A DNA stretch of 46,411 nt from Acidimicrobiaceae bacterium (lineage in GTDB: Bacteria; Actinomycetota; Acidimicrobiia; Acidimicrobiales; Aldehydirespiratoraceae): the NCBI GenBank assembly GCA_009843915.1, contig VYCM01000070.1, positions 1 to 46,411 of the forward strand, given 5' to 3'. The notes under the pieces were generated by a model. The model ran no database searches, was not told the DNA's origin, and saw only the letters and a list, made by a program, of their open reading frames with translations. Numbering within the stretch: position 1 is the stretch's first letter; each line of letters opens with the position of its first letter. The position numbers and the translations under genes are program-made. Shown here piece after piece: positions 8,567 to 44,201 of this stretch.

Positions 8567-8613
8567 GAATCGGCAGCGTTGTGCACGGTATGTGTGCATT
8601 CTGCTGCCAGTTC
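8567..8613 (+). repeat. Dispersed hairpin element, copy A (47 bp)
   Basis: Starts GAATCGGCAGC and ends GCTGCCAGTTC, the outer stem of the family. The inner stem is TGCAC/GTGCA. It is one base shorter than the other copies and its outer stem carries one mismatch. It lies in the divergent gap between the SDR (minus) and the livH-like gene (plus). Confidence 0.85.
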
Positions 8614-8749
8614 GGCGTCGCAGGGCCGCGGCGCTGGCGTAGTTCTATAGGACTGGCCCGCACGTAGGGGTGACAATGGCTCTCGGGCCGCTGGGCGCGG
8701 CCGGGCCCCCCAAAGTACGTTCAGCGCGGGCCAGTGCTTGGAGGGCTAG

Positions 8750-9826
8750 TTGACCGCGCACGCCGTCGACGAGCGGGAACTTCAGCTCAGGCGGCCGTTC
8801 GTGCTGCCGCGATGGGTGTCGCGTGCCGCGGTGTGGGTGCCGGTGGCCGCCGCGGCCCTGTGGGTTCTCGTCCTGGCTCGCAACACATCGGCCGGCCCGG
8901 CCATCCGGGAGCCCGGCGAGTTCGTGGTCACGCTGCTGGACGGCGTCACCTTCGCGGGGCTGCTGTTCGTGGTGGCGTCCGGGTTCACCCTGATCTTCGG
9001 CCTGATGCGCACGGTCAACATGGCCCACGGGTCGCTGTTCCTCGGCGCCGCCTATGTCGCCCACGAGATCCAGACCAACATGGTCGGCAAGGACGCCAAC
9101 ATCGACGCCCGCGACGTGAGTCTGCTGGCCTGGATCCTGCCGCTGCTCGCGGCCGGAGCCGTCGTCGCCCTCCTCGGCCTGCTCATGCAGCAGCTGCTGC
9201 TGCGCTGGAACCAGGGCCAGGACCTGCGCCAGGCCCTCATCACGCTGGCCATCTCGGTGATCGCGGCCGACCAGCTGCTAGCCCATTTCGGCGGCGTGGC
9301 CCAGCCGCTGAAGTGGCCCGGCGCCGTCACCCACTTCTTCGAGATCGTGGGCGAGCGCTACGCCACCAGCCGGCTGTTCATGCTGGGGGTGGCGCTGCTG
9401 GTGGGCGCGCTGCTCTGGCTGTGGCTCAACCGCACCCGCATGGGCATGGTCATTCGGGCCGGCGTGGACGATCAGGAGATGGTCCGGGCCCTGGGCATCA
9501 ACATCACGTTGGTGTTCGCGATCACGTTCGTGGTCGGGTCGTTCCTGGCGGGGGTCGGCGGCGTGCTGGGCGGGTCGTTCGCCGGCTCGGTGGCGCCGGG
9601 AGTTGACGGTGCCTGGCTGCTCAATTCGCTGGTGGTGGTGATCATCGGCGGGCTCGGGTCGGTGAAGGGGGCGGTGGCCGGGTCGCTGCTGTACGGCATG
9701 GTGGTGGCCCTCTCGCCCGCGTACCTGCCCGCCGGGTACACCTACTACTCGGTCATATTCACGTTCGCCCTGCTGGCGGTGGTGCTGGCGGTGCGGCCCG
9801 CAGGCCTCTACGGACGGGCCGAATGA
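8750..9826 (+). CDS. livH: Branched-chain amino acid-type ABC transporter permease (LivH family)
   Basis: 358 aa, TTG start with GGAGGG 4 nt upstream. Multiple hydrophobic helices. Family motifs include LFVVASGFTLIFGLMRTVNM, which fits the LivH N-terminal region, and GLGSVKGAVAGSLLYGMVVA near the C-terminus. It forms one half of the membrane channel of a HAAT-family importer, with the LivM-type partner encoded immediately downstream (ATGA overlap). Relatives carry branched-chain amino acids, urea, short amides or aromatic acids, so the LivH name describes family, not substrate. Confidence 0.9.
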   Translation: MTAHAVDERELQLRRPFVLPRWVSRAAVWVPVAAAALWVLVLARNTSAGPAIREPGEFVVTLLDGVTFAGLLFVVASGFTLIFGLMRTVNMAHGSLFLGAAYVAHEIQTNMVGKDANIDARDVSLLAWILPLLAAGAVVALLGLLMQQLLLRWNQGQDLRQALITLAISVIAADQLLAHFGGVAQPLKWPGAVTHFFEIVGERYATSRLFMLGVALLVGALLWLWLNRTRMGMVIRAGVDDQEMVRALGINITLVFAITFVVGSFLAGVGGVLGGSFAGSVAPGVDGAWLLNSLVVVIIGGLGSVKGAVAGSLLYGMVVALSPAYLPAGYTYYSVIFTFALLAVVLAVRPAGLYGRAE

Positions 9827-10923
9827 GCCCGACAGGCGCCGCGCCCGGGCGGGTCCAATCGCGCCGCACCCTCCGGCGACTGCTGTCGGCCCGCAACGTG
9901 GTGGTGGCCGCGGCCACCGCGCTGGCCCTGCTGCTGCCCCTGTTCGGCTCGAACTTCTTCGTCGAGTTCGTGATGACCCGGACCATGATCCTCGGGATCG
10001 CGGCAGCCACCATCGTGTTCCTGGCGGCCTACGGCGGCATGGTCTCGCTGGCCCAGTACCTGCTGGCGGGTGTGGCCGGCTTCATGGTCGGCAACGCCGT
10101 CGTCGCCCAGGACGCCTGGTCGAAGGGTCTCAAGCTCGGCTGGAACCCGTGGGTGGCGGTGCTGTTCGCCCTGGCGGTCACCACCGCCGTCGCCTTCGTG
10201 CTGGGCGCGCTGGCGTCTCGCACCACCGGCATCTACTTCCTGATGATCACCCTCACCTACGCGGTGATCGGCTACTACGTGTTCGGGTCGATCACCCCGC
10301 TGTCGGGCTTCGGCGGGATCACCGGCATCGACCCGCCCGGCCTGTTCGAGGACCACCCGCAGCGCATGTACCTCGCGCTGGTGGTGCTCTCGGTGCTGGT
10401 CTACGTCGCCTTCCGGGTGCTGGCCGTCACCCCGTTCGGCCTGGCCCTTCAGGGCATCCGCGACGACCCGGTGCGTATGGCCTCGCTGGGCTTCAACGTG
10501 TCGCTGCACCGCACTCTGGCGTTCACCCTGGCCGGCTTCACCGCCGGTCTGGCCGGCGTGTTCAACGTCTGGTGGAACGGCCAGATCGACCCCACGTCGA
10601 TATCGATCGGCCCCACCCTCGACCTGCTGATCGTGGCCGTCATCGGCGGCACCCTCAGCCTCGAGGGCGCCTGGCTGGGTGCCTTCGTGTTCGTGGCGGC
10701 CAACAACTACCTGCGCAACCTCCCCCTCGTCGACCACATCGGCATCACCGAGGCCCGGTTCAACACCATCGTCGGGGTGCTGGTGCTGCTCATCATGATC
10801 CTTTCGCCCGACGGCCTGGCCGGGATCATCGATCGCATCCGCCTGGGCCTGCGCCGTCTGGTCCAGCTGTCGCGGGGATCCGGAGCCGGCCCGGCCGAAG
10901 CCGCGGCCGGTTCGGCGCCATGA
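9823..10923 (+). CDS. livM: Branched-chain amino acid-type ABC transporter permease (LivM family)
   Basis: 366 aa integral membrane protein. The start overlaps the livH stop in ATGA, so translation is coupled. LivM-type features include GGMVSLAQYLLAGVAGFMVG, the cytoplasmic loop LALQGIRDDPVRMASLG (the EAA-like ATPase-contact loop) and a C-terminal VLVLLIMILSPDGLAGI. It pairs with LivH to form the translocation pore. It is followed by a short gap holding a hairpin and then the receptor gene. Confidence 0.9.
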   Translation: MSPTGAAPGRVQSRRTLRRLLSARNVVVAAATALALLLPLFGSNFFVEFVMTRTMILGIAAATIVFLAAYGGMVSLAQYLLAGVAGFMVGNAVVAQDAWSKGLKLGWNPWVAVLFALAVTTAVAFVLGALASRTTGIYFLMITLTYAVIGYYVFGSITPLSGFGGITGIDPPGLFEDHPQRMYLALVVLSVLVYVAFRVLAVTPFGLALQGIRDDPVRMASLGFNVSLHRTLAFTLAGFTAGLAGVFNVWWNGQIDPTSISIGPTLDLLIVAVIGGTLSLEGAWLGAFVFVAANNYLRNLPLVDHIGITEARFNTIVGVLVLLIMILSPDGLAGIIDRIRLGLRRLVQLSRGSGAGPAEAAAGSAP

Positions 10924-10963
10924 ACGCATTCACCAAGTTCGCGACCGTCACGTGCGGTCCGAA

Positions 10964-10979
10964 GCGGACGCATGTCCGC
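10964..10979 (+). promoter_or_regulatory. Hairpin between permease and receptor genes
   Basis: GCGGAC-GCAT-GTCCGC, 6-bp stem with a 4-nt loop, in the 100-bp gap before the receptor gene. It could stabilise or punctuate the mRNA so that the receptor is made at a different level. There is no U-tract, so it is not a clear terminator. Confidence 0.4.
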
Positions 10980-11023
10980 CCCCTAATGGAGGGGATTCAG
11001 CCCATGAGAGAAAGGACCACTCC

Positions 11024-12571
11024 ATGAGATACAAGCCAACCTTCCGAAGGCTCCTGAGCCTTGTCGGCATCGTTGCCGTGTTCGCGTTGCTCGCCGCCTC
11101 CTGCGGCGACGACGACGACGGCGACGCTGCGCCGGCGACAACGGCCGCCCCGGCGGAGCCCGAGGCCCCGGCCGAGCCGGAGGCCGAACCCGAGGCGGAG
11201 CCTGAGGCCGAGCCCGAGGCAGAGCCGATGGAAGAGATGGACGACCACGCGCACGTGCACCTCGGCATCCTCGGCGAGTGCGAGGGCGCCTTCGGCGCGT
11301 TCCACGAGGACGTCGTGGCCGGTGCGTCGCTGCCGTTCATCACCTTCGCGGGCGGGACATCGAACTCGCCCACCAGCGCGCTGGAGGGATTCAGCGGCGC
11401 CGTGGTCGCCGGCGTGCCCATCGAGGTCGTCGGCATCGGCTGCGGTGACGACACCCCCGACCGCATCATCCAGGAGGTCCGCAAGATCGTCGAGCAGGAC
11501 GGCGCCAACGTGGTGATCGGGCCGCTCTCGGGTGACGAGAGCATCGCGATCGCCAACTACGCGAAGGACCATCCCGAGGTGACCTTCCTCAACGGGATCG
11601 CCGGTGCCCAGGAGACCACCATGGTCGTCCAGGCCCCGAACTTCTTCCGGTTCAACGGTGACGGCGCCCAGTGGAACGCTGGTCTCGGAGACATCCTCCA
11701 CAACGAGGCCGGCTGGGACACTGCGGCCGTGATCGCCGATGACTACAGCTTCGGCTGGACCTCGACGGCGGGCTTCATCGCCGAGTTCTGCGCGGTCGGC
11801 GGCGACGTCATATCGAGGGTGTTCCCACCCCTGGGAACCACCGACTACTCGTCGTTCGTCCAGCAGCTTCCCGACCCGGACGAGGTTGACGGCTACTTCT
11901 GGGCCGTCGGCGGCTCGGGCACCAACGCCTCGCTGGAGGCCTTCCTCGCGGCCAAGGGCGACCTGACCGGCGACCAGCACGCGGGCAACCTGTTCTTCAG
12001 CCCGGCGCTGGCCGCAGCTCTGGGGACCGACATCGCGGGGGCCTACGTGGGCGGCTTCGCCACCCTGCCCGGCGACGTCTCCAGCCCGGCCATCCAGGAG
12101 TACCTGGCGTCGGCGGACGCCGCGTGGGACTCGTTGGTAAGCCCCATGTCCGGCATGGAGCCCGGTTCGCCCGCGGCTGCCGCCGGATTCGGGTTCTTCT
12201 ACGGCTTCTACAGCTCGGCCCTGGCCTTCATCATGGCCCTCGAGCAGGTCGGCGGAGACCTGTCCGACAACCACGCCGCGCTGCGCGACGCCCTGGCCAA
12301 CATCCAGATCGACGGGCCCTACGGCACCATCACCCTCGACGACAACCGTCAGGCCATCGTCGACACGTCCGTCCAGCAGCTCGTGCTGAACGACGCCGGC
12401 GAGGTGGTGTCGCAGACCGTTGCCCTGATCCCGGCCGTGGACCAGAGCTTCGGCGGGACGTTCAGCCCGACCACGCCGCCACCGGACCGTGAGAACCCGG
12501 TGTGTGAGACGCGCGACCTGCCCTGGGCCGGCAACGCCATCCCAGTGGTCGACGGCGTTCCGCAAGGCTGA
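11024..12571 (+). CDS. Substrate-binding lipoprotein of the ABC transporter (LivK/type 1 periplasmic fold)
   Basis: 515 aa. ATG 11024 follows AGAGAAAGGA. The signal peptide ends in the lipobox LAASC (Cys27), so the mature protein is a lipid-anchored receptor. An acidic, Pro/Glu repeat linker (EPEAEPEA type, about residues 45-70) leads to the ligand-binding domains, recognisable by VVIGPLSGDESIAIANYA and the ABC-receptor pattern DDYSFGWTSTAGF. It is longer than typical LivK (about 370 aa), mostly through the linker and a C-terminal extension. It delivers substrate to the LivHM permease; the ligand is not predictable from sequence alone. Confidence 0.87.
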   Translation: MRYKPTFRRLLSLVGIVAVFALLAASCGDDDDGDAAPATTAAPAEPEAPAEPEAEPEAEPEAEPEAEPMEEMDDHAHVHLGILGECEGAFGAFHEDVVAGASLPFITFAGGTSNSPTSALEGFSGAVVAGVPIEVVGIGCGDDTPDRIIQEVRKIVEQDGANVVIGPLSGDESIAIANYAKDHPEVTFLNGIAGAQETTMVVQAPNFFRFNGDGAQWNAGLGDILHNEAGWDTAAVIADDYSFGWTSTAGFIAEFCAVGGDVISRVFPPLGTTDYSSFVQQLPDPDEVDGYFWAVGGSGTNASLEAFLAAKGDLTGDQHAGNLFFSPALAAALGTDIAGAYVGGFATLPGDVSSPAIQEYLASADAAWDSLVSPMSGMEPGSPAAAAGFGFFYGFYSSALAFIMALEQVGGDLSDNHAALRDALANIQIDGPYGTITLDDNRQAIVDTSVQQLVLNDAGEVVSQTVALIPAVDQSFGGTFSPTTPPPDRENPVCETRDLPWAGNAIPVVDGVPQG

Positions 12572-12624
12572 GCGAACCGTCTGCCAACCGACTGAGCGGT
12601 TCAATCACCTGAGCTGAGTCACCG

Positions 12625-13428
12625 ATGAACACCGACGCTGCCACCGCCGCCTCCGCCGAGAGGTCTGGTTCCCTCCTGAACCTGGAGGCGGTGGTGGTGG
12701 CGTTCGGTGGCCTGCAAGCCCTCGGAGGCGTGGACCTCAAGGTCTGGAAGGGCGACCGCCTGGCGCTGCTCGGACCGAACGGCGCCGGTAAGACGACCCT
12801 GTTCAACGTGATCGCGGGCGACATCAAGCCGACGTCGGGGCGAGTGATCATCAAGGGGATCGACTGCACGGAACTGCCGGCACGGTTCCGTCCCCGCCTG
12901 GGAGTGGCTCGCACCTACCAGAAGACCCGGCTGTTCCGGGGATTGACGGTGGAGGACAACCTCTACCTCGCCCAGACCGGGCGCTCGGGCCGGCACCTGG
13001 CGCTGCTGCGTTCGGGTGTCGACGCCGAGTTCCGGGAGAGGGCCCGAGCCATGGCCGAGACGGTCTGGCTCGCCGACGTCGTCGGCGTCACTGCCGGCGA
13101 CTTGTCGCACGGTCAGCAGCGCCAACTCGAGATCGGCATGGCCCTGGTGACCGGGCCGGAATTCGTCATGCTCGACGAGCCGGCCTCGGGGCTGTCGCGG
13201 GGAGAGAGGGAGCGCCTGGTGCAGCTGCTGCTGAGCTTGGACGCCGACATCACTCTGCTGCTGATCGAGCACGACATGGACGTCGCCTTGCGCGCCGCCC
13301 AGCGGGTGATGGTGATGAACGAGGGAGAGACTGTGGCCAGCGGCACGCCCGACGAGATACGGGTCGACCCGCTGGTGCACTCCATCTACCTCGGAAGCGA
13401 GGCAGGCCTGGGAGGGGCGGACCCGTGA
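12625..13428 (+). CDS. livG: ABC transporter ATP-binding protein (LivG family)
   Basis: 267 aa ATPase. Walker A GPNGAGKTT, signature LSHGQQRQLEIGMAL (LSHGQ variant of LSGGQ), Walker B FVMLDEPASGL, switch His in LIEHDMD. A Leu/Arg-rich insert before the signature is usual for LivG. It powers import with LivF as a heterodimer on the LivHM permease. It lies 53 bp after the receptor gene; its end overlaps the LivF start by 4 bp (GTGA). Confidence 0.9.
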   Translation: MNTDAATAASAERSGSLLNLEAVVVAFGGLQALGGVDLKVWKGDRLALLGPNGAGKTTLFNVIAGDIKPTSGRVIIKGIDCTELPARFRPRLGVARTYQKTRLFRGLTVEDNLYLAQTGRSGRHLALLRSGVDAEFRERARAMAETVWLADVVGVTAGDLSHGQQRQLEIGMALVTGPEFVMLDEPASGLSRGERERLVQLLLSLDADITLLLIEHDMDVALRAAQRVMVMNEGETVASGTPDEIRVDPLVHSIYLGSEAGLGGADP

Positions 13429-14141
13429 CCGCGGCGGACTCTCTGCTGACCGTGGAGGATCTCCAGGCCGGCTACGGCACCTCGCAGGTGCTGGACGGCT
13501 TGACCTTCTCCATGGGCACCGAGGCGGTCTGCATCCTCGGGCGCAACGGCATGGGCAAGTCCACGCTGTGCAAGACGATCATGGGGATGGTGGCGCCCAC
13601 CGCGGGTGCCATCACCTTCTCGGGCCGCCGCATCGACGGCCTCGCTCCCGAGAAGGTGGCCCGCTCCGGGATCGCCTACGTGCCCCAGGGGCGCCGCCTC
13701 TTCCCGTCACTCACGGTAGAGGAGCATCTGGCCATGCTGGCGCCCGAATCGCGAGGCAAGCGCTGGACGCCGGCGGCCGTCTACGAGTTGTTCCCCCGCT
13801 TGGCCGACCGCCGAAGAAACGGGGGAGCGGAGCTCTCCGGGGGTGAGCAGCAGATGCTGGCCGTGGGCCGGGCCCTGCTGCTCAACACCCCTCTCATCGT
13901 GATGGACGAGCCGTCGGAGGGGCTAGCCCCGAGCATCGTGGACGACCTGATCGACGTGGTGCACCAGCTCGTGTCCGAGGGCGTGGCGGTGCTGGTGGTG
14001 GAGCAGAACCTGCGGGCGGCCACCGCCATGTCGCCCCGTCAGCTGGTGATGACCTCCGGTCGTATCGAGATCGAGTTGACCGCCTCGGAGCTCCTGGAAT
14101 CGACGGAGCTCCAGAGCACCCATCTGGGCGTGGACGCCTGA
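13425..14141 (+). CDS. livF: ABC transporter ATP-binding protein (LivF family)
   Basis: 238 aa ATPase. Walker A GRNGMGKST, signature LSGGEQQML, Walker B PLIVMDEPSEGLAPSIVDD, followed by VLVVEQN in which Gln occupies the switch-His position, as is normal for LivF. GTG start overlapping livG. Last transporter gene; the two-component genes follow after about 120 bp that carry a palindrome and a promoter-like sequence. Confidence 0.9.
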   Translation: MTAADSLLTVEDLQAGYGTSQVLDGLTFSMGTEAVCILGRNGMGKSTLCKTIMGMVAPTAGAITFSGRRIDGLAPEKVARSGIAYVPQGRRLFPSLTVEEHLAMLAPESRGKRWTPAAVYELFPRLADRRRNGGAELSGGEQQMLAVGRALLLNTPLIVMDEPSEGLAPSIVDDLIDVVHQLVSEGVAVLVVEQNLRAATAMSPRQLVMTSGRIEIELTASELLESTELQSTHLGVDA

Positions 14142-14147
14142 GACAAC

Positions 14148-14170
14148 TTTGACAGGGACACCTGTACAAA
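14148..14170. promoter_or_regulatory. Imperfect palindrome between livF and the sensor kinase gene, possible operator
   Basis: TTTG-A-CAGG-GACA-CCTG-TA-CAAA: outer arms TTTG/CAAA and inner arms CAGG/CCTG around a GACA centre. It contains TTGACA, but no -10 stands at 16-18 bp from that hexamer. The location upstream of a transcription start candidate suggests a regulator site; none has been shown. Confidence 0.4.
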
Positions 14171-14221
14171 TGCCAGATCCGACCCTTACCGATATGGCGG
14201 CGCGCGTGAGCGCGCCGGCTG

Positions 14222-14250
14222 CCGACAGGCGTTCCAGCGACGGCTATGAT
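14222..14250 (+). promoter_or_regulatory. Promoter for the two-component pair (leaderless)
   Basis: CCGACA (14222-14227) and TATGAT (14245-14250) are separated by 17 bp, matching a sigma70-type promoter with a strong -10. The -10 ends 9 nt before ATG 14260. Confidence 0.5.
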
Positions 14251-14259
14251 CGCGGCGGC

Positions 14260-15987: not shown

Positions 15988-16643
15988 GCGCCGCATCCGG
16001 CGGAGCGATCAGGGTGGTAGTGGTGGACGATCATGACCTGCTGCGCGAGGGGGTGACCGCTTGCCTCGACGGCTACGACGACATCGAGGTGGTGGGCACG
16101 GCCCACAACGGCGTCGTTGCCGTGGACCGGGTGGTGGAGATGCACCCCGACGTCGTGGTGATGGACCTGATAATGCCGGGAGGTGGGGGAGTGGAGGCCA
16201 TCGCCGAGATCGCCCGCCGGGCTCCCGATACGAGGGTCCTCGCCCTGACCAGCTTCACCGACGGGACGCTGCTGCGCTCTGCTCTCGAAGCTGGCGCCAC
16301 CAGCTTCCAGCTCAAGAGCGTCACGGGCGACGATCTGGCCGCGTCCATCCGCTTCACCGCCGCGGGGCAGTCGGCCATGGACTCGTCGGTCACCCGCCTG
16401 ATCGCCTCCGACCATGACGTTCTGCGGGACCTGACCGACCGTGAGCGCGAGGTGGCCGATCTGCTGGCCACGGGCCTGTCCAATGCCGAGATCGCCGAGC
16501 GCCTCTATCTGAGCATCTACACGGTCAAGAACCACGTGAGCAACATTCTGATGAAGTTCAACGTGCAATCGCGCACCGAACTGGTGGCCATGATCCTCAA
16601 CGCCCGCTACCAGGACCGCCCCAAGCTCCCACCCCGCCCGTAG
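15984..16643 (+). CDS. NarL/LuxR-family response regulator
   Basis: 219 aa. Receiver domain with acidic pair Asp15-Asp16, phosphorylation site Asp61 (VVVMDLIMPG) and conserved Lys111. The C-terminal LuxR-type helix-turn-helix is visible as LTDREREVADLLATGLSNAEI and VKNHVSNIL. ATGA overlap with the kinase gene makes it the cognate partner. It lies between the transporter and the molybdenum-hydroxylase genes on the same strand, so control of one or both is a reasonable inference. Confidence 0.92.
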   Translation: MSAASGGAIRVVVVDDHDLLREGVTACLDGYDDIEVVGTAHNGVVAVDRVVEMHPDVVVMDLIMPGGGGVEAIAEIARRAPDTRVLALTSFTDGTLLRSALEAGATSFQLKSVTGDDLAASIRFTAAGQSAMDSSVTRLIASDHDVLRDLTDREREVADLLATGLSNAEIAERLYLSIYTVKNHVSNILMKFNVQSRTELVAMILNARYQDRPKLPPRP

Positions 16644-16675
16644 ACCATCGGAGCGCTGATTGTGCGACTAGTGCT

Positions 16676-16690
16676 TAGGAGCCACTCCTA
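16676..16690. promoter_or_regulatory. Inverted repeat upstream of the molybdenum hydroxylase genes
   Basis: TAGGAG-CCA-CTCCTA, perfect 6-bp arms around 3 nt, in the 175-bp gap between the response regulator and the hydroxylase genes. It is short enough for a NarL-type dimer site. Functional role is inferred from position only. Confidence 0.4.
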
Positions 16691-16818
16691 TGGGGGTGGG
16701 CAGGTTGCTCCGCTGGTGCCTGTTGCACGCTGCCGGGGTCAACTTGAATCCGAGGACAGCGCTAACGGTGCCGGTCGGCCTGTCGCGGGCGGGCGCGGAG
16801 CACCACCAGGAGGTTGCC

Positions 16819-17607: not shown

Positions 17608-17608
17608 C

Positions 17609-29910: not shown

Positions 29911-29958
29911 GAATTGGCAGCGTTTTGCCCCGTATGGGTTGCATTGTGCTGCCAGTTC
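29911..29958 (+). repeat. Dispersed hairpin element, copy B (tandem array unit 1)
   Basis: 48 bp, GAATTGGCAGC ... GCTGCCAGTTC. Inner stem TGC-CCC / GGG-TT-GCA around a GTAT loop. The 16 nt before it (GGTCGTGCTTCGCCGG) recur before copy D with one change. Confidence 0.9.
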
Positions 29959-29981
29959 GGCTGGGTAGGGGTCGCGGTCGG

Positions 29982-30029
29982 GAATTGGCAGCGTCTTGCC
30001 CCGTATGGGTTGCATTGTGCTGCCAGTTC
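29982..30029 (+). repeat. Dispersed hairpin element, copy C (tandem array unit 2)
   Basis: 48 bp, differs from copy B by one base (GTCT for GTTT in the left internal loop). It starts 71 bp after copy B. Confidence 0.9.
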
Positions 30030-30053
30030 GGGAGTGGGGTCGTGCGTCGCCGG

Positions 30054-30101
30054 GAATTGGCAGCGTTTTGCCCCGTATGGGTTGCGTTGTGCTGCCAGTT
30101 C
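30054..30101 (+). repeat. Dispersed hairpin element, copy D (tandem array unit 3)
   Basis: 48 bp, differs from copy B by one base (GCG for GCA near the inner stem end). It starts 72 bp after copy C. Confidence 0.9.
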
Positions 30102-30200
30102 GCGAGGTCTGGGGCCGCCACGGTGCGTGGGACTCGTCTTCGTCTGCCAAGATGACCGCTCAGCGCGCCCTTCCCGCCGACTGCTGGAGGAACCCGAGAC

Positions 30201-30998
30201 ATGTCGATGAACGTCGATCGCTTGACTGAGCTGTTCGGCCTGGACGGCAGGACGGCTGTCGTCACCGGGGGGAGCCGCGGTATCGGCCGCATGATCGCTG
30301 GCGGGCTGCTCGACGCCGGCTGCCGGGTGATCGTCTCGGCCCGCAAGGCCGACCAGCTCGCCGCGGCCGCCGAGGAACTGTCCGCGCTGGGCCCGTGCGA
30401 GGCCGTGCAGGCCGACCTAGCCACTCTCGAGGGCTGCCAGGCGCTTGCCACCGAGGTGGCGAAGCGGTGGGAGTCGTTGGACATCCTCGTCAACAACGCC
30501 GGCGCCAGCTGGGGCGCCCGGCTGGACGAGTTCCCGGTGGACGGTTGGAACAAGGTGATCGACACCAACCTGCGGGGACCGTTCCTCCTCACCCAGAAGC
30601 TGCTTGACCTGCTGCGGGCCGCGGCCCGCCCGGAGGTGCCAGCCCGCGTGATCAACGTGGCCTCCGTCGACGGTCTGAAGGTGCCCGACATGGAGACCTA
30701 CTCGTACTCGGCGTCGAAGGCCGGGATCATCCACCTCACCCGCCATCTCGCTAAGCGACTCGCCCGCGAGCACATCACCGTCAACGCCATCGCTCCGGGT
30801 CCGTTTGACTCGAAGATGATGGCGTTCATCCTCGACGATCCGAAGGCCCGGGCCGAGTTGGCGGGCATGGTCCCGCTGGGCAGGATCGGTCAGCCCGACG
30901 ACATGGCGGGAGCCGCGGTCTACCTGGCCTCGCGGGCCGGCTCCTACCTGACCGGCGCGACGGTGGCCGTAGGAGGCGGCATCGGCTTCGCCGACTGA
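30201..30998 (+). CDS. SDR-family oxidoreductase
   Basis: 265 aa classical SDR: VVTGGSRGIGR (cofactor site), an Arg after beta-2 (VSARKADQL) suggesting NADPH, NNAG, VINVASVDG with catalytic Ser, YSYSASKAG with Tyr and Lys, and a C-terminal YLTGATVAVGGGIGF. The length and the SRGIGR/YSYSASK pattern resemble RhlG- or gluconate-dehydrogenase-like members. It is not one of the duplicated pair. ATG with upstream GGAGG. Confidence 0.87.
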   Translation: MSMNVDRLTELFGLDGRTAVVTGGSRGIGRMIAGGLLDAGCRVIVSARKADQLAAAAEELSALGPCEAVQADLATLEGCQALATEVAKRWESLDILVNNAGASWGARLDEFPVDGWNKVIDTNLRGPFLLTQKLLDLLRAAARPEVPARVINVASVDGLKVPDMETYSYSASKAGIIHLTRHLAKRLAREHITVNAIAPGPFDSKMMAFILDDPKARAELAGMVPLGRIGQPDDMAGAAVYLASRAGSYLTGATVAVGGGIGFAD

Positions 30999-31011
30999 CC
31001 CCCGCCGTGTG

Positions 31012-31059
31012 GAATTGGCAGCGGTGGGTGCCGGTTTGGGCGCTGTGGGCTGCCAGTTC
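31012..31059 (+). repeat. Dispersed hairpin element, copy E
   Basis: 48 bp. Both outer arms are identical to copy B, but the centre is different: inner stem GTGCC/GGCGC. It starts 14 bp after the SDR stop, in a gap between convergent genes. Confidence 0.85.
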
Positions 31060-31084: not shown

Positions 31085-31096
31085 GGATTGGCAGCG
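31085..31096 (+). repeat. Fragment of the hairpin element (left arm only), copy F
   Basis: GGATTGGCAGCG matches the left arm with one change. The preceding CCCGCCGTG (31074-31082) matches 31001-31009 before copy E, so this is a truncated tandem unit offset by 73 bp. It ends 11 bp before the P450 stop. Confidence 0.6.
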
Positions 31097-32832: not shown

Positions 32833-32842
32833 GGCGTCACCT

Positions 32843-36332: not shown

Positions 36333-36377
36333 CGTGGGGACTGGTCTCACCTTCATACAGACGCAGAGGAGGCGGAT

Positions 36378-37523: not shown

Positions 37524-37553
37524 GCACAGCAGCTCGCGTCGACGTTCGGGGAT

Positions 37554-38756
37554 GTGACAGTGACTGCAGGACCACGCGGGGTGGGGGGCCGGTACTTCGT
37601 CCAGAACCCCGGGCCCACCAACATCCCCGACCGGGTGCTGGAGGCATTCCGGCGCCCGGCCATCGACTTCTCCGACCCCGACTTCATCGCGCTGGCCGAC
37701 AGCGTCTGGACCGAGTTGCCCGAGGTGTTCGGCGGGGCCGACGAGATTGTGGTGCTGACCACGGTGGGCCACGGCGCCTGGGAGTCGGCCTTGACCAATA
37801 CCCTCGATCCCGGCGACGCGGTGCTGATTCCCGACTGCGGGCTGTTCGGCAAGCGGTGGGCGATGATGGCCCGGGACCTGGGCTACGAGGTGGTGTCCAC
37901 GTCGGAGCACCTGCGGAGCCCCACCGACCCCGCCGAGATCGCCGACATCCTGGCGGCCGACACGTCCCATCGCATCCGCAACGTGTGCATCGTTCACACC
38001 GAGACGTCCACCGGCTCGGTCACCGACCTGGCCGCCATGCGGGCCGCCATCGACGCGGCCGGCCATCCGGCGCTGTTCGTGGTGGACGGGGTGTGCTCGC
38101 TGGGCATCGAGCCGCTGCGGATGCGCGACTGGGGGATCGACGTGGTGGTGGCCGCGGCCCAGAAGGGCCTGATGATGCCGCCCGGCCTGGCCTTCTGCGC
38201 GCTGAGCGAGCGGGCGGTCGAGCGCAACCACTCTGCGTCCACCCCCCGGTTCCATCTGGCCTGGGCGCCCCGCTTCGAGAGGGGCCACATCTACATGCGT
38301 TTCGGCGGCACCCCGCCTATCCAGCACATGTTCGCTCTTCGGGCCGCGCTCGACATGATCGCTGAGAACGGCGGGATCGACGCCTCGGTGGCCCGTCACC
38401 GCCGCTGGGCTGCTGCGGTGCACGCCGCGGTGGACGGATGGTCGTCGGGGGGCCCCTGGGAGATCAACATCGCCGAGCCCAAGCACCGCACCGCGGCCAT
38501 GACCTGCGTGCGGACCGGCGACATCCCCGCCGGCCCGCTGATCGACATGGCCCGGGACCGCTTCAGGGTGAGTGTCGGGTCGGGGATGATGAGTTCGCTG
38601 GAGGGCCGGACCTTCCGTATCGGTCACCTCGGCGACCTCAACGAGCCGATGCTGCTCGGCGCCCTTGGCGGCCTGGAGACGGCCATGACGGTGCTCGGGC
38701 TGCCCCACGGCCACGGCCTGCCCGCCGCGGTCGCGTCCTTGGCCTCCACCGCCTAG
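37554..38756 (+). CDS. Class V aminotransferase (serine/alanine-glyoxylate type)
   Basis: 400 aa PLP enzyme. N-terminal NPGPTNIPDRVLEAF, TTVGHGAWESALTN, HTETSTGSV, the Asp of FVVDGVCSLGIEPL and the PLP Lys in AAAQKGLMMPPGL, a sequence typical of serine-glyoxylate and pyridoxamine-pyruvate aminotransferases. The C-terminal FRIGHLGDLNEPMLLGAL is also characteristic. GTG start. Amino donor is not certain. Last of three closely spaced plus-strand genes. Confidence 0.9.
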   Translation: MTVTAGPRGVGGRYFVQNPGPTNIPDRVLEAFRRPAIDFSDPDFIALADSVWTELPEVFGGADEIVVLTTVGHGAWESALTNTLDPGDAVLIPDCGLFGKRWAMMARDLGYEVVSTSEHLRSPTDPAEIADILAADTSHRIRNVCIVHTETSTGSVTDLAAMRAAIDAAGHPALFVVDGVCSLGIEPLRMRDWGIDVVVAAAQKGLMMPPGLAFCALSERAVERNHSASTPRFHLAWAPRFERGHIYMRFGGTPPIQHMFALRAALDMIAENGGIDASVARHRRWAAAVHAAVDGWSSGGPWEINIAEPKHRTAAMTCVRTGDIPAGPLIDMARDRFRVSVGSGMMSSLEGRTFRIGHLGDLNEPMLLGALGGLETAMTVLGLPHGHGLPAAVASLASTA

Positions 38757-38769
38757 CCCGCCTCCCTGC

Positions 38770-38817
38770 GAATTGGCAGCGTACGGTGCCCTATAGGGCA
38801 CTAACTGCTGCCAGTTC
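38770..38817 (+). repeat. Dispersed hairpin element, copy G
   Basis: 48 bp. The inner stem is perfect, GTGCCC-TATA-GGGCAC, though it differs in sequence from copies B-D. It starts 13 bp after the aminotransferase stop and ends 8 bp before the convergent engB stop, so it could act as a bidirectional terminator here. Confidence 0.9.
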
Positions 38818-38825
38818 CCGCGCCC

Positions 38826-39419
38826 CTAGGCCTGAAGCAGCGTGGCCACCAGCGCCCGAAGCTCAGTGATGCCGGTGCCCTTGGTGGAGCTGGTCCAGTG
38901 GACGGTGCCCCGGTCGGTGCCGAGCTTGGCCGCGAGTTCGCTCCGGCGGTTGCCGCGGCGGGACGGGCGTACCTTGTCGGCCTTGGTGGCCACGTAGGTC
39001 ACGGGGAGTCCCAGCCCGTCCAGCCATTCGACGGTCTGGAGGTCGAGGCCGGTGGGACCGATCTCGCCGTCGATGAGGTGCAGCACGCCCCGAAGCGGCT
39101 CCCGGTGGGCGAGGTAGCCCTCAGCCATGGCGCTCCAGCGACCCTGCTCGGCCTTGGACGCCTTGGCGTACCCGTAGCCGGGCAGGTCTACCAGCCACAG
39201 TCCCGAGCCTTCGGCGCCCAGTTCGAAGGCGTTGATCAGCCGGGTGGCGCCGGGAGTCTTGGACGTGCGGGCCAGCTTCTTGCGCTGGGCCAGCGCGTTG
39301 AGCAGCGACGACTTGCCCACGTTGGACCTCCCCACCAGAGCGATCTCGGCCACCGTGGCCGGCATCTGGCGAGCGTGGGGGAAAGACGACACGAATCGCA
39401 GCGCCAGTGGCCCAGCCAT
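38826..39419 (-). CDS. engB: Ribosome biogenesis GTP-binding protein EngB/YsxC
   Basis: 197 aa single G domain. G1 GRSNVGKSSLLNAL, G2 region KTPGATRLINAF, G3 DLPGYGYAKASK, G4 TKADK. Needed for 50S subunit assembly in other bacteria. TAGCCT 6 nt upstream of ATG 39419 suggests a leaderless transcript. It lies 48 bp downstream of the Fpg-like gene. Confidence 0.95.
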   Translation of the reverse strand: MAGPLALRFVSSFPHARQMPATVAEIALVGRSNVGKSSLLNALAQRKKLARTSKTPGATRLINAFELGAEGSGLWLVDLPGYGYAKASKAEQGRWSAMAEGYLAHREPLRGVLHLIDGEIGPTGLDLQTVEWLDGLGLPVTYVATKADKVRPSRRGNRRSELAAKLGTDRGTVHWTSSTKGTGITELRALVATLLQA

Positions 39420-39425
39420 CCGATC

Positions 39426-39431
39426 AGGCTA
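39426..39431 (-). promoter_or_regulatory. -10 box for engB
   Basis: TAGCCT on the minus strand, 6 nt before ATG 39419, no Shine-Dalgarno. The same hexamer, with the same 6-nt spacing, precedes the threonine aldolase start. Confidence 0.5.
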
Positions 39432-39467
39432 CGTGTGTGGTTGTAGCTGGGGGTTGCAGCCGCGGTG

Positions 39468-40247
39468 TCAGGTCTGGTGGTCGGGGCACCAGTAGGTGGT
39501 GCGGCCGCCCACCTGTTCGCGGCGCAGAGCCGCCCCGTCGCGGGGGCAGCCGCCACCCCGCTCCCGACCCGGCTGGAGGTCGCCCGTGTGGGAGCCGCCC
39601 CGCTCGCCGAGGACGGCCAGCGTGCGGCGAACGTTGCGATGCAGCCGGGCCGTCTCCCGGGCATCCAGGGATCGGGCCTCCCGGACGGGGGACAGGCCGG
39701 CCCGCCACAACGCCTCGTCGACCAGCAGGTTGCCGAGCCCGGCCACCCGCCGCTGGTCGAGCAGCCGGGCCTTGAGCGCCACCGTCGAGTCGCCGAGCGC
39801 CTTGCGCAACTGGCCGAGTGTGAGCGACAGCGCGTCCGGGCCCAACTTGCTCTCGTCCGGCTCGAGCTGAACGCCGCCCAACCGCCGAGGGTCACGCAGC
39901 ACCATGGCGCCCCCGCCCTCAAACTCCAGCCCAAACCGGTCCCAGGCCGGCTCGTGGCGGGGGCTGTCGTACAGCAGATGGTCGATGGGCATGGCCCCGT
40001 CCACCACGATCTTGCCGGTCATGCCGAACCGCAGCCCCAGCCGCGGGCCGTCGGTGTCGACGATGACGAGCTTGCCGATGCGGCGGGCCTCCTCGATGCG
40101 GGCTCCGGTCAGCTCGGAGCGCAGGGCGTCGGTGGTGGTGCCGCCCTTGGCGAACCACTCATCCGGAGCGTGGACGCTGGCGATCGTGCGCCCCTCAGTG
40201 GCCGAGATGGCCCTGCGGTAGGCCTCCACCTCGATGATCTCAGGCAC
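39468..40247 (-). CDS. Fpg/Nei-family DNA glycosylase with variant zinc finger
   Basis: 259 aa. N-terminal Pro2-Glu3 of the bifunctional glycosylase/AP-lyase family (MPEIIEVEAYRRAI), a conserved-type Lys in RRIGKLVIVD, a helix-two-turn-helix region (LDQRRVAGLGNLLVDEALW) and a C-terminal zinc-finger remnant. The normal CxxC...CxxC finger reads CPRD...CPDH, so two ligands are Asp and His. The usual HLGMTG reads RFGMTG. It should still excise oxidised bases, but specificity is uncertain between Fpg and Nei. GTG start 8 bp after the membrane protein gene stop. Confidence 0.85.
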   Translation of the reverse strand: MPEIIEVEAYRRAISATEGRTIASVHAPDEWFAKGGTTTDALRSELTGARIEEARRIGKLVIVDTDGPRLGLRFGMTGKIVVDGAMPIDHLLYDSPRHEPAWDRFGLEFEGGGAMVLRDPRRLGGVQLEPDESKLGPDALSLTLGQLRKALGDSTVALKARLLDQRRVAGLGNLLVDEALWRAGLSPVREARSLDARETARLHRNVRRTLAVLGERGGSHTGDLQPGRERGGGCPRDGAALRREQVGGRTTYWCPDHQT

Positions 40248-40255
40248 AGCCAGCC

Positions 40256-40750
40256 CTACGACGACAGGGCCGCGAGGAGTTCGTCGGTCCGCTCGGTGGT
40301 GACAGTCAGCTTGCGGGTCTGACCCTTGCGTCGGTACTCCACGGTGACGGCCTTCTTGCCTCCGAGCGAGTAGAGCAGGTCGGGTCGCTTGCCCTTGAGG
40401 CCCCAGCCGCCGTAGTCCCTCATGGGGTCGACCTCTCGGGTGTAGACCTCTCTGATCTCCCGTCTAGGAACATGCGACTTGAACGGCCACGGCCACAGTC
40501 GGACGCTGTAGAGGCGGTCGTCGACCCGCACCCGCAACTGCATCGTCCACAGAATCGCCGGAAGGATCCCGCCGGCCAGAACGACCAGTCCGATGAGGCC
40601 GATCCATTCCCACGGCGAACTGGGGCTCTCCTGGCTGAGGACGAGCGACATCACGAGGATGAGGATCACGGCCTCGAAGGCAGCCAGAGGCTTCAGCCAC
40701 CGGCCCACGTCCTTCGATACTCGCTGTTTCTCGACGAACCGGATTGGCAT
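40256..40750 (-). CDS. Small membrane protein, function unknown
   Basis: 164 aa. A basic N-terminus (PIRFVEKQRVSKDVGRWLK), two hydrophobic helices (about residues 22-40 and 50-69) joined by SQESPSSPWEW, and a soluble C-terminal region with a PH-like beta pattern (LRVRVDDRLYSVRLWPWPF, KKAVTVEYRRKGQTRKLTV). Not recognised as a named family. It sits between the dehalogenase and glycosylase genes on the same strand. Confidence 0.75.
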   Translation of the reverse strand: MPIRFVEKQRVSKDVGRWLKPLAAFEAVILILVMSLVLSQESPSSPWEWIGLIGLVVLAGGILPAILWTMQLRVRVDDRLYSVRLWPWPFKSHVPRREIREVYTREVDPMRDYGGWGLKGKRPDLLYSLGGKKAVTVEYRRKGQTRKLTVTTERTDELLAALSS

Positions 40751-40792
40751 AGGGACTTTCTCGCAGGGTCGTGGGCGTAGGGACCCTGCCGG

Positions 40793-41738
40793 TCAGCCGG
40801 CGGCGAGCCAGGCGTTGATGGCCTCGGCCAGAGCCGGGCCCTGGTCCTCCTGGATAAAGTGGCTGGCCGGCTCGAACTGGGCGTGGGGCTGGCCGGCCGC
40901 GCCCGGGATCCGCTCGGTCATGAAGGGCTGCAGGCCGCCCAGCACCGGGTCGCCGGGCGCCCACAGGGTGAGCACCGGCTTGGTCCACTGCTCCAGGACC
41001 GTCCAGGCGGCCTTGTTGGCGGGCACGGCCGGGTCGTCGGGCGAGACCGGCACCAGCAGCGGGAACTGGCGGGCACCGGCCATGTACAGCTCTTCGGGGA
41101 ACGGCGCCCGGTAGGCGTCGAGGGCGGCCTCGCTCAACTCGTTGGCGGTTGCGTTCTCGACCAGCCGGCCGCAGTCCAGGAAGGGACGTCCTGGCTGAAC
41201 TGCCGCCAGAAGTCGAGGCCGCGCCGGGGGAGTCGCCCACCGGGAGCGCGGTGTTGGCCAGGATCAGCCAGCCGACTAGGTCGGGGTTCTCCGCGGCCAG
41301 CCGCAGGCCGATCAGGCCGCCCCAGTCCTGGCCGAACAGGTGCAGCGGCCCGTCGCCCCGCTCGACCGCGGTCGCCTCCAGGAAGTCGCGCATCCACTCG
41401 ACGTGTCCCGCATAGGTGTAGGCCGAACGCTCGACTGGCTTGTCGGACCGGCCGAAGCCGATCAGATCCGGCACGAGCACCCGGTGCCCGGCACCGGCAA
41501 GCACCGGGATCATCTTGCGGTACAAGTAGCCCCAGGTCGGCTCGCCGTGCAGCAGCAGGATGGTGTCCGTGTCGCTGTCCGATGAATCCGGGCCGGCGAT
41601 CACATACGCCATTCGCAGTCCGTCCACGGTGACGTGCCGCGGCTCGTAGGGGTAGTCGTCGATGGCGGCGAAACGATCTTCGGGCGTGCGGACGTAGGCG
41701 ATGCCGCTCGGCGTGGTCAGAGTCTCCGTGTCGGTCAT
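40793..41738 (-). pseudogene. Haloalkane dehalogenase, interrupted by two frameshifts
   Basis: Joined across three frames this is an alpha/beta hydrolase of about 314 aa, closest to the DhmA-like haloalkane dehalogenases: HGEPTWGYLYRKMIP, DLIGFGRSDKP, nucleophile Asp138 and halide-binding Trp139 in LFGQDWGGLIGL, acid Asp in APGDPVLGG, and base His in ASHFIQED. One base appears missing near 41213-41220 (between DSPG and RGLDFWRQF) and one near 41182-41187 (between SQDV and FLDCGRLVE). Both fall in short C/G or CCTTCC runs. All catalytic residues survive in the joined product, so sequencing error or very recent loss is likely. ATG overlaps the guanine deaminase stop as ATGA. Confidence 0.85.
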
Positions 41739-43078
41739 GGCTTCACGCTAGAGCCGTCCACCCAGACGTGGCTGATGTCGTCGGCGGTGGCCAGGCGGAC
41801 GACCTTCTCGAAGGCTCGGGCCTCGTCGTCGATGCCGTCCCACAGCCGGATAGCGCCACCGGGCCGGTCGGTCCGCACTGCCATGGCGTCGAAGCAACGG
41901 CCCGGCTCGATCAGCCCCACGGGCAAGTCGACTACCGCGGCACCCCCTGCGGTCGCCAGCCAGAAGGCGGTCATGGTGTCGATGCGAGACTCGGGCACGC
42001 CCCTATCCGTCGCGCCGAGCGCCGGGTCGACGCCGTCCTCCAGCATGCGGGAGACGGTGACCGCGTCCTGACAGACCCCCAGCAGGCCGGGGCGGGCACC
42101 GCCGGCGATGTCGCTGCCCAGCCCGACGCCCACACCGGCGGCCAGCGCTTGCCGCACCCCGAACACCGCGTTGGCGAAGTAGGCGTTGGACAGCGGGCAG
42201 TGGGCCACGCCCGCACCCCGTCCAGCCACTAGGACAGCCTCCTCCGGGGTTAGGTGGTCGCTGTGGGCCAGCACGGTGCGCGGGCGGACGAGGCCGAAGC
42301 GGTTGAGGGCGGTCGAGTCACTCACGCCGAAGCGGTCGAGGGCGTAGTCGCAGTGCCAGTCCGATTCCGCGCAGTGCGTCTGCACCCGCACGCCGGTAGC
42401 CGCGGCCAGCTCTCCCAGTCCCTCGAGCAGGGCGTCGGTGCAGGCCGGCGTAAAGCGGGGCGTGATGATCGGCTCGACCCGCGGGCTGCCCACGGCTGTC
42501 ACGGCCTCTATGGACGCGGCCGACGCCTCGACGCCCGCGCTGGCGGTCGCGTCCCGGTACCACTCGGGTGTACCAACGGGGTGGTCCATGGCCACCCGAC
42601 CCACCAGGGCCCGCTGCCCGTGACGGGCGCACGCCCGGGCCAAGGCGGTGGTGGCCTCCAGGTGGTTCGACGAGAAGTAAACGGCGGTGGTGGTGCCCAT
42701 GGCCAGCAGCGACGGCACTAGGTCGTCCCACACCGTGGCGGCGAACCCGGCGTCGGCGTAGCGAGCCTCGAGCGGGAAGGTGTAGTCGAACAGCCAGCGC
42801 TCCAACGGCAGATCGAGTCCCGTGCCGAGCTGGGGCCATTGGGGCGCATGGATGTGAAGGTCCACCAGCCCGGGTATCAGGAACGTGCCCTCGGCCAGGT
42901 CCACTCGTTCGTCAGCCGAGTCAAGCGCGGCCCGGCCCGAAGCCGCTCCCTCCGAGGTGGACTGGTCGTGCACCGCGGCGACCCTTCCGGCGTCGTCGAC
43001 CTCGACCACTGCGTCCATCACCGTCAGGCGGTCGGGCGCCGGTGTCTGCATCAGCGTTCCAGCCACGGCCAGCGTCAC
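41735..43078 (-). CDS. guaD: Guanine deaminase
   Basis: 447 aa amidohydrolase that converts guanine to xanthine and ammonia. Zn ligands in GLVDLHIHAPQW, family signature GLDLPLERWLFDYTFPLEAR, MDHP, TPRFTPACTD, the Zn His in QTHCAESDW, LAHSDHL, and the Asp of GLGSDIAGG. The IHAPQW...TFPLE pattern separates it from chlorohydrolase-like relatives. GTG start. Its stop overlaps the dehalogenase ATG, coupling the two. Purine salvage or catabolism is the expected role. Confidence 0.92.
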   Translation of the reverse strand: MTLAVAGTLMQTPAPDRLTVMDAVVEVDDAGRVAAVHDQSTSEGAASGRAALDSADERVDLAEGTFLIPGLVDLHIHAPQWPQLGTGLDLPLERWLFDYTFPLEARYADAGFAATVWDDLVPSLLAMGTTTAVYFSSNHLEATTALARACARHGQRALVGRVAMDHPVGTPEWYRDATASAGVEASAASIEAVTAVGSPRVEPIITPRFTPACTDALLEGLGELAAATGVRVQTHCAESDWHCDYALDRFGVSDSTALNRFGLVRPRTVLAHSDHLTPEEAVLVAGRGAGVAHCPLSNAYFANAVFGVRQALAAGVGVGLGSDIAGGARPGLLGVCQDAVTVSRMLEDGVDPALGATDRGVPESRIDTMTAFWLATAGGAAVVDLPVGLIEPGRCFDAMAVRTDRPGGAIRLWDGIDDEARAFEKVVRLATADDISHVWVDGSSVKP

Positions 43079-43104
43079 GGCGCCACCGTACTCGTCTCGG
43101 GATT

Positions 43105-44118
43105 TCAGGCCAGCAGCTCGGTGAAGGCGTCGACAGCGATCTCCACGTCTTCGGCGGAGACGTCCAGATGGGTGACCAGCCGGGACTGTGGGCCGTCCCA
43201 GCGGGTGAGGACACCGCGGTCGGCGAGCGCTTTGCTCAGGTCCGGGCTATTGCCTCCCGCTTCATCGTCGAGGCGGATGAACACCATGTTGGTGGCGCAC
43301 GAGTCGATCTTCACGCCGTCGATGGCGGCCAGGCCCTGGGCCAGACGGGCAGCGTTGGCGTGATCGTCGGCCAGGCGCTCGATGTGATGCTCCAGCGCGT
43401 AGAGGCCGGCGGCCGCCACGATGCCGGCCTGGCGCATCCCGCCCCCGAGCATCTTGCGCCACTTATGGGCCTCGTCGATGAGATCCGCCGGCCCGACCAG
43501 CACCGATCCCACCGGCGTACCCAGACCCTTCGATAGGCAAACCGACACCGAGTCGAACGGCGCGGCCGCCGCCGCCGGTGAGACCCCCAGCGCCACCGCC
43601 GCGTTCCACAGCCGGGCCCCGTCGAGGTGGTGGGACAGGCCGTGGCGTGCGGCCACCTCAGCCGAGTCCTCCATCTGGGTCAGGGTGAGCACCTTGCCGT
43701 CGTTAGTGTTCTCCAGGCACAGCAGGCGCGTGCGGGCGAAGTGGTGGTCGGGGGCCTTCACCGCCGCCTCGGCCGCGGCGAGGTCGATCATGCCGTCGTC
43801 ACCGGTGGGCACGGGCTGGGGTTGGATGGAGCCGAGCACCGCTGCGCCACCGCCCTCGTACATATAGGTGTGAGCATGGTTGCCGACGATGTACTCGTCG
43901 CCGCGCCCGCAGTGGGCGAGCAGCCCGCAGAGGTTGCCCTGCGTACCGCTGGTCACGAACAGGGCGGCCTCCTTGCCGAGCAGCGCCGCGGTGGTCTCCT
44001 GCAACTCGTTGACGGTGGGGTCCTCGCCGTGCACGTCGTCGCCCACGGCCGCTGATGCCATAGCCGCCCGCATGGCTGCCGTGGGCTTGGTAACGGTGTC
44101 GGAGCGAAGGTCGATCAC
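43105..44118 (-). CDS. ltaE: Low-specificity threonine aldolase
   Basis: 337 aa PLP enzyme cleaving threonine or allo-threonine to glycine and acetaldehyde. N-terminal [33 protein letters not shown], then [25 protein letters not shown] and the PLP Lys in [19 protein letters not shown] start with TAGCCT 6 nt upstream, so probably leaderless. It precedes guaD by 26 bp on the same strand. Confidence 0.95.
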
Positions 44119-44124
44119 GCCCTC

Positions 44125-44130
44125 AGGCTA
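44125..44130 (-). promoter_or_regulatory. -10 box for the threonine aldolase gene
   Basis: TAGCCT on the minus strand, 6 nt before GTG 44118, no Shine-Dalgarno. Confidence 0.5.
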
Positions 44131-44153
44131 CGGCCCCCCGACCGGCTCGCCCA

Positions 44154-44201
44154 GAATTGGCAGCGTCTTGCCCCCTAGGGGGTGCGTTCTGCTGCCAGTT
44201 C
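44154..44201 (+). repeat. Dispersed hairpin element, copy H
   Basis: 48 bp. Outer arms identical to copy B; inner stem built on GCCCCC/GGGGGTGC around TA. It lies between two minus-strand genes, just upstream of the threonine aldolase -10 box. Confidence 0.9.

Follow-up and report, generated by a model that had tools for sequence, protein, structure and literature searches.

Contig VYCM01000070.1 of an Acidimicrobiaceae bacterium (46,411 nt, our contig C87; analysed at its full length and called the window here) carries seven full copies of an intergenic hairpin element of 47 or 48 nt. The hairpin family is a genuine repeat resembling the repetitive extragenic palindromes (REPs) of other bacteria, and it is undescribed as far as our searches reach: the window gave no match at the gathering score of Rfam 15, in line with the first-pass annotation of this DNA, which knew of no named family, and no published description was found in the literature searched, a body that largely excluded subscription papers. 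We read the element as a REP-like, non-autonomous hairpin repeat of one clade within an Acidimicrobiia genus that may be moved as single-stranded DNA (ssDNA), and give this reading a probability of about 0.45. Its unusual points are a fixed gap between neighbouring copies, their mostly head-to-tail order, a polarity along the chromosome, and the lack of a known mobiliser.

In the parent genome (G000; 3.24 Mb, 151 contigs, 87.8% complete), the pattern GAATTGGCAGC-N24..27-GCTGCCAGTTC had 29 matches and the reversed control pattern none. A covariance model built from 66 copies yielded 108 matches at E ≤0.01, both strands of near-palindromes being counted, and at least 55 full copies at 39 sites when copies ≤400 nt apart were merged into one site. 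The count of 55 is a lower bound because the best 150 of 2227 parent-genome candidates were scored; elsewhere, 150 candidates were scored per genome. By the same model, genome G380 contains at least 84 copies at 58 sites. An exact-end scan of genome contigs retrieved at least 110 stretches, and all of them except L043 are titled as metagenome-assembled genomes (MAGs) of Acidimicrobiaceae or Acidimicrobiia. The match in L043 (Ktedonobacteraceae) was rejected, its centre being unrelated; L043 is among the 143 sequences of the anatomy set described below and was excluded from the counts of orientation, context, spacing, flanks and rearrangements. A pattern match in G409, from another genus, was discarded as well, with no element in L152 and no match to the model. 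A viral vehicle was rejected, with no exact element match among viral contigs.

Copies with exact ends occurred in three of 395 sampled genomes of the class, all three from the window's genus. The covariance model found the family in 13 of 16 genomes of this genus (84–96% complete) and in none of 35 genomes from other genera of the same family, to which stricter filters were applied. Twelve species are rich in elements, G403 has a single site, and none was detected in G395, G324 and G404. A tree built from four gene segments and rooted on G395/G324 places the 12 rich species in one cluster; the branch separating them from G395, G324, G404 and G403 has a support of 95, the placement of G403 only 53. 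The stretch around the G403 copy is 93–97% identical to G388, as compared to 78–91% for the other stretches compared. Because this stretch is unusually close to G388, the copy probably arrived with its neighbouring DNA and, as we infer, did not multiply there.

The first loci contained 209 exact-end occurrences, many of them from overlapping loci; after these had been merged by flank and the window's copies added, there were 176 copies. Their distinct sequences number 143, of which 80 have 48 nt, 61 have 47 nt, and two have 46 nt. The 11-nt ends are near-invariant and form an 11-bp outer stem; of 270 distinct oriented copies, 185 have T.G as the pair at position 4. The fold continues with a loop of about 3x3 nt, an inner stem of about 5–7 bp, and a terminal loop of 4–5 nt. 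Counted in register, the inner stem has 4.65 pairs, as compared to 2.67 in shuffled centres, and five or more inner-stem pairs are present in 43% of copies versus 9% of shuffled centres. The + strand folds better, its inner part being the more stable one in 98 versus 38 of the 143 sequences.

According to the first-pass annotation, the centres differ in sequence but stay paired, and such compensatory change around fixed ends pointed to selection on structure or to a structure-dependent mobile or recombination substrate. The inner stems are indeed present in the folds, but the covariation is far below what had been claimed. Pooled over 66 sequences (63 distinct), 69 doubly changed cells were counted versus 36.0 ± 5.4 after shuffling, which neither here nor in the class-wise tests corrects for relatedness, and the covariation score was 0.167 versus 0.092 (slid controls, ≤0.063); the number of pairs with a double change (7 vs 6.2) and of pair types (22 vs 21.5) matched expectation. 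Most of the pooled signal is a contrast between subtypes. When the two length classes were analysed separately, each thinned to at least four differences (74 and 106 copies), total counts equalled expectation (553 vs 552.9 and 703 vs 704.7), and wide covariation was therefore rejected. Clear covariation was confined to pair 16-33 in the 48-nt class (z 7.8) and to pairs 16-32 (z 4.6) and 21-27 (z 5.5) in the 47-nt class, so that compensatory change within length classes rests on one or two stem pairs. Pairs 13-36, 14-35 and 15-34 of the 48-nt class are under-paired (z –5.0, –2.6 and –2.5, respectively), indicating an open internal loop, although two subtypes differing in these letters may explain part of the effect. 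The data thus support a hairpin whose internal loop is open, and do not support wide compensatory change. What stands of the earlier interpretation is that the repeat family is genuine, that its hairpin is conserved, and that the element is probably mobile in a structure-dependent way.

Near-identical copies at unrelated loci within one genome formed 151 pairs, involving 90 of 330 flanked copies. The flanks of those pairs that lack a neighbouring copy (46 right, 54 left) showed no clear excess of identity over the flanks of dissimilar pairs, and a mobile unit carrying its flanks is not supported by this comparison. Direct repeats in the flanks of 170 copies were about as frequent as expected by chance (30 vs 28.1 expected for k=2, 6 vs 7.6 for k=3, and 4 vs 1.8 for k=4), and none of five or more nucleotides was found among them; the target-site duplication (TSD) of miniature inverted-repeat transposable elements (MITEs) of the DDE type was thus not observed. 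Since neither shared flanks nor a duplicated target were found, the 47/48-mer alone seems to be the dispersing unit. Each of the flanking positions –4 to –1 and +1 to +4 carries at most 0.34 bits, with G preferred at +1 and +3 (170 copies). In the one clean pair of a filled and an empty site, G380 (L166) has the 48-mer plus three bases and G399 (L120) has neither; there is no target duplication, and the insert is located 24 nt upstream of a second copy that is common to both genomes. Among 779 matches spanning a joined junction, 157 (52 copies) come from other genomes that have no element at this point. Two of these have ≥75% identity and ≤6 gap columns about the junction, namely the pair just described and a noisy match beside another copy. 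In the other present/absent pairs (94 with flanks ≥86% identical, 14 of them inspected), mostly a short intergenic stretch is replaced. Orthologous sites differ in copy number, from 0 to 3, and in subtype. At the site corresponding to position 38770 of the window, for example, G000 has one copy, G380 three, G397 two of the 47-nt type, and G388 and G401 none.

Neighbouring copies are separated by a nearly constant gap. Among 110 gaps shorter than 60 nt, from 98 groups, 105 measure 23–25 nt and 81 exactly 24 nt; a second count, covering gaps shorter than 400 nt, gave 105 of 120 at 23–25 nt. Distances from start to start are mostly 71 or 72 nt, which fits a constant gap and not a constant period. 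Spacers of different groups are unrelated (mean aligned identity 0.55), those inside one group are alike (0.82, n=12), and 13 and eight of 94 spacers resemble the right and the left flank, respectively. The spacing holds for dissimilar neighbours too: it is 23–25 nt in 11 of 13 pairs whose cores are less than 70% identical, and in six of six at 70–80%. Neighbours nevertheless are homogenised (core identity 0.86 vs 0.65). Orientation is uniform in 58 of 61 groups from 8-kb loci and mixed in three, and 130 of 330 copies stand alone, without another copy within 60 nt. When copy number changes, the first part of the right flank may be repeated and a new junction formed (L019, L126, L170); comparable flank repetition is described for REPIN clusters of Pseudomonas fluorescens SBW25 (PMC3116915). 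Such expansions, the homogenised neighbours and the failure to find an enzyme would suit a chance palindrome that is spread and homogenised by replication slippage and template switching, without a dedicated enzyme. Slippage, however, accounts neither for an exact unit scattered over unrelated loci nor for a fixed gap with unrelated spacers, and template-switch repair would close the internal loop that is found open; we consider this explanation improbable.

The orientation of the elements tracks regional GC skew and not gene direction. On contigs with at least two sites, 43 of 49 sites in G380 are on the contig's majority strand, where 33.5 were expected and none of 20,000 draws was as high; in the parent genome, 14 of 15 sites are (P 0.0135). 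At 132 of 174 distinct sites, the element lies on whichever strand of the locus is G-rich. Agreement persisted at 122 of 174 sites with 1 kb around every element masked, and an origin of the polarity in the elements' own G-rich flanks was therefore rejected. Without masking, the G-rich strand agreed at 34 of 43 sites between convergent genes, 17 of 22 between divergent genes and 71 of 97 in tandem settings, and in a logistic fit (n=142) z values were 5.5 for skew, 1.9 for regional gene strand, and 0.6 for neighbouring genes. It is unlikely that the polarity is an imprint of regional mutation, as contig skews are ≤0.037 versus 78% G or T among the loop letters, a figure that arises partly by construction because orientation is itself defined in part by these columns. 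For G380 and on average, the elements are evidently polar along the chromosome, and we infer from this polarity that they follow the direction of replication.

At orthologous sites compared across species orientation is equal, one G399 copy being ambiguous. This constancy, the chromosomal polarity, the location behind genes and a gap that is fixed even between dissimilar neighbours would also be consistent with a site serving the host, namely a polar binding site under selection for a chromosome-organising protein (gyrase, or a nucleoid or segregation factor), whose 24-nt gap would reflect that two bound units must fit. A function of this kind is difficult to reconcile with a family that was not detected in three of the 16 genus genomes and has one site in a fourth, and with orthologous copy numbers between 0 and 3. 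Moreover, the many copies lacking a neighbour within 60 nt indicate that pairing is not required. A host-functional site therefore appears rather unlikely, albeit not far-fetched.

Gene calls came from a simple codon model of our own, and elements were located inside called genes at two of 174 sites. Both neighbours were called at 162 sites, of which 43 are convergent, 22 divergent and 97 tandem; in a background of 730 intergenic regions (70–600 nt) drawn from these loci, 93 are convergent and 201 divergent. Facing stop codons are a median of 15 nt away (183 distances), and 74 of the 97 tandem sites are closer to the stop than to the start. Together with the better-folding + strand, this habitat would suit an RNA element, i.e., a hairpin in the 3' untranslated region with the role suggested for REPs, to stabilise or terminate transcripts. 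However, at 38 of the 97 tandem sites the element is antisense to both flanking genes, 22 sites are between divergent genes, and orientation tracks GC skew even where gene direction gives no cue. Besides, the right flank is G-rich and no T run follows the hairpin (T at 12, 13, 23, 32, 29 and 32 of 170 copies at +1 to +6), unlike an intrinsic terminator. The prevalence of G.T over A.C in the inner stem (120:45) matches the compositional expectation (137:55) and was rejected as proof of an RNA. On this evidence, a role in RNA is distinctly unlikely.

Regions with elements are rearranged more often overall. In a set of 1763 comparisons, from which 19 classed as "far" had been excluded, rearrangement was observed in 128 of 550 with and 152 of 1213 without an element (odds ratio 2.1). 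At the site of window position 44154, G000 has one copy, and G380 has two elements, an open reading frame (ORF) of 322 amino acids (aa) and a third element between equal outer flanks; the window segment 30108–31004, situated between elements, is inverted in G380, G396, G399 and G404. Integron attC sites have conserved ends, variable folded centres and the core RYYYAAC/GTTRRRY. Fixed ends, variable folded centres, and gene gain or loss beside some copies are common to attC sites and the hairpin family, and one may think of integron-like sites at which single genes insert, excise and invert. In contrast to attC arrays, the hairpins are dispersed and not clustered, no integrase (PF00589) tracks them, and GTT is followed by C in all exact-end copies (as set by the search pattern), which does not fit GTTRRRY. 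Homologous recombination between 48-bp direct repeats accounts for the deletion, and close pairs show no significant rearrangement excess. An integron-like system is thus very improbable, and we read the rearrangements as ordinary recombination at repeats.

Several details of these loci were recorded. The 322-aa ORF (L201:18708-19676 in G380), to which a gene in L205 (G399) looks similar by eye, matches AbiEi_4 at its N-terminus (28.1 bits, cut-off 25) and has a weak C-terminal match to a REase family, below the cut-off (19.7 of 38.2). Around the inverted segment, nearby DNA is 94–98% identical to that of relatives, breakpoints are located beside or inside elements, and G396 retains a truncated element at the breakpoint. 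An ORF of 386 aa with AAA_14 and DUF4143 domains (L216:6781-7941, G405) adjoins an element at the site orthologous to window position 38770; the other relatives compared at this site do not have the insert.

If, as we prefer, the element is a REP-like hairpin moved as ssDNA, the G/T-rich, best-folding strand would be the leading strand, and it would be exposed as ssDNA on the lagging-strand template. An ssDNA-cutting enzyme would recognise the paired ends together with the open internal loop, would copy or move the unit without target duplication, and would favour a place 24 nt away from a copy already present. Recombination would then make groups grow and shrink, and may also remove or invert neighbouring segments. 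A bolder version, in which the family represents a new class of ssDNA mobile hairpin, independent of RAYT proteins, placed by a 24-nt ruler, acquired once by the clade and inserted along the direction of replication, is conceivable but doubtful.

A number of results weigh against movement as ssDNA. The RAYT/Y1 transposase that had been suggested as a partner to look for did not turn up: PF01797 (Y1_Tnp/RAYT) was found in none of the 16 genomes of the genus, the control search having found it in five of 14 named genomes. Proteins of PF00589 do not track the elements. Two matches above 110 bits, taken for putative XerC/XerD, occur in 13 of the 16 genomes, element-bearing and element-free alike, and a tyrosine recombinase partner was rejected, since element-free G404 has 11 PF00589 matches and element-rich G405 only two. 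Cas1 does not track the elements either (seven of 16 genomes, none found in the parent genome), and its presence in element-free G395 and G324 led us to reject a CRISPR-like adaptation. With respect to polarity, G401 does not deviate significantly from chance (14 of 19 sites, P 0.18), and its site pairs less than 20 kb apart agree in three of eight cases. Neither third-position skew (84 of 151 sites, p 0.19) nor regional gene strand (91 of 174, p 0.6) agrees with orientation, although gene strand did so in the 8-kb loci taken by themselves (77 of 125); orientation is mixed in five of the 13 8-kb loci that have two sites or more. No replication origin was located, and the step from skew to replication relies on the general rule that the G-rich strand is the leading strand. 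Furthermore, the clean empty site is a single one among 157 element-free junction matches (52 copies), and where flanks are at least 90% identical the rearrangement excess is absent (16 of 140 with vs 21 of 265 without an element, p 0.28).

CRISPR loci, too, consist of near-identical palindromic repeats around unrelated spacers of fixed length, but the hairpins form small groups at dozens of sites, and Cas1 was found in seven of the 16 genomes, the parent genome not among them. Elements of the IS200/IS605 type, like the hairpins, show no target duplication; they differ from the hairpin family in their Y1_Tnp protein, matched in 0 of the 16 genomes searched. Their Y1 (HuH) transposases process hairpins in the lagging-strand template (PMC6006769). 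With REPs and bacterial interspersed mosaic elements (BIMEs), the family shares the character of a high-copy, short intergenic palindrome. REPs and BIMEs are located mostly downstream of genes, between convergent or tandem genes, have G.T stem pairs and partly unpaired stems, and occur singly, in pairs or in groups (PMC3733652; PMC2817692). The hairpin family is like REP palindromes in habitat, G.T pairs and place behind genes. It differs from them in having no conserved tetranucleotide at the foot of the stem, where REPs have the tag GTAG (or CGTC), and in lacking a detected RAYT/Y1 partner (0 of 16 genomes). BIMEs alternate in orientation (PMC2817692), whereas nearly all hairpin groups are uniform. 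In strain SBW25, REPINs and tandem REP arrays resemble the hairpins in dispersing as a discrete unit and in having tandem units whose flanks are repeated in part, with a stretch between them that is not. The tandem REP arrays of this strain point forward in one region of its chromosome and in the reverse direction in the region opposite (PMC3116915). REPINs, as presented there, are composed of two inverted REPs, and their clusters are near RAYT genes, whereas single hairpins in direct order are found here.

Within the window, a scan for both ends (≤4 mismatches summed) recovered exactly the seven full copies reported by the first-pass annotation, with identical coordinates, ends and lengths, and no match in the window read backwards (Table 1). 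The additional fragment is likewise present: GGATTGGCAGC, 25 nt behind copy E, is taken for the beginning of a lost second unit, and the gaps in the window thus measure 23, 24 and (to this relic) 25 nt. The outer stem of 11 bp with a T.G pair was confirmed, except that the left arm of copy A, GAATCGGCAGC, adds a C.A mismatch. The 22 half-site matches in the window comprise 14 element arms, the relic, and seven two-mismatch matches elsewhere, with a total of about nine expected by chance; the many solitary half-sites that mark DNA uptake sequences were not found in the window.

Table 1. Hairpin elements and associated features of the window (scores refer to the covariance model).
Feature	Position	Strand	Score or match	Setting
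Copy A, 47 nt	8567..8613	+	57.9 bits	Between divergent genes, SDR (–) and BPD_transp_2 permease (+)
Copy B, 48 nt	29911..29958	+	65.6 bits	First of three-copy group B-C-D, upstream of SDR gene 30201-30998
B/C spacer, 23 nt	29959..29981	.		
Copy C, 48 nt	29982..30029	+	63.4 bits	Group B-C-D
C/D spacer, 24 nt	30030..30053	.		
Copy D, 48 nt	30054..30101	+	64.5 bits	Group B-C-D
Segment carrying SDR gene 30201-30998	30108..31004	+		Element sites on both sides
Copy E, 48 nt	31012..31059	+	61.2 bits	13 nt past SDR stop codon; convergent genes SDR / P450
Relic, left arm of second unit	31085..31095	+	1 mismatch	Repeat family D3
Copy G, 48 nt	38770..38817	+	61.9 bits	13 nt past stop of aminotransferase gene; convergent with GTPase gene
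Copy H, 48 nt	44154..44201	+	64.4 bits	Flanked by two – strand genes

Two further observations concern the surroundings of the elements in relatives. An insertion of about 140 bp, which starts with AGGCCGAGCGAATAGGTGAGCGA, ends with a near inverted copy of it and has CTCAG on both sides, splits an element; it is located in L114/L180 (G403, second copy of the cob locus) and in L215 between gD and gE. Similar sequence occurs between other G403 genes and partly in G388, and the insertion perhaps represents a second, TSD-making MITE family. Contigs C58, C102, C126 and C130 of G406 start 4–13 bases before an element, suggesting that the repeat probably breaks MAG assemblies.

REP-type palindromes are attributed to RAYT transposases. 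A family with REP-like habits, a fixed gap of about 24 nt and chromosomal polarity, but without a detectable Y1 gene in 16 genomes, would imply either that another enzyme acting on ssDNA is at work, or that such repeats may spread and remain polar without one. Since 12 element-rich species can be compared with four near relatives having no site or one, a search for the enzyme by gene presence and absence is feasible.

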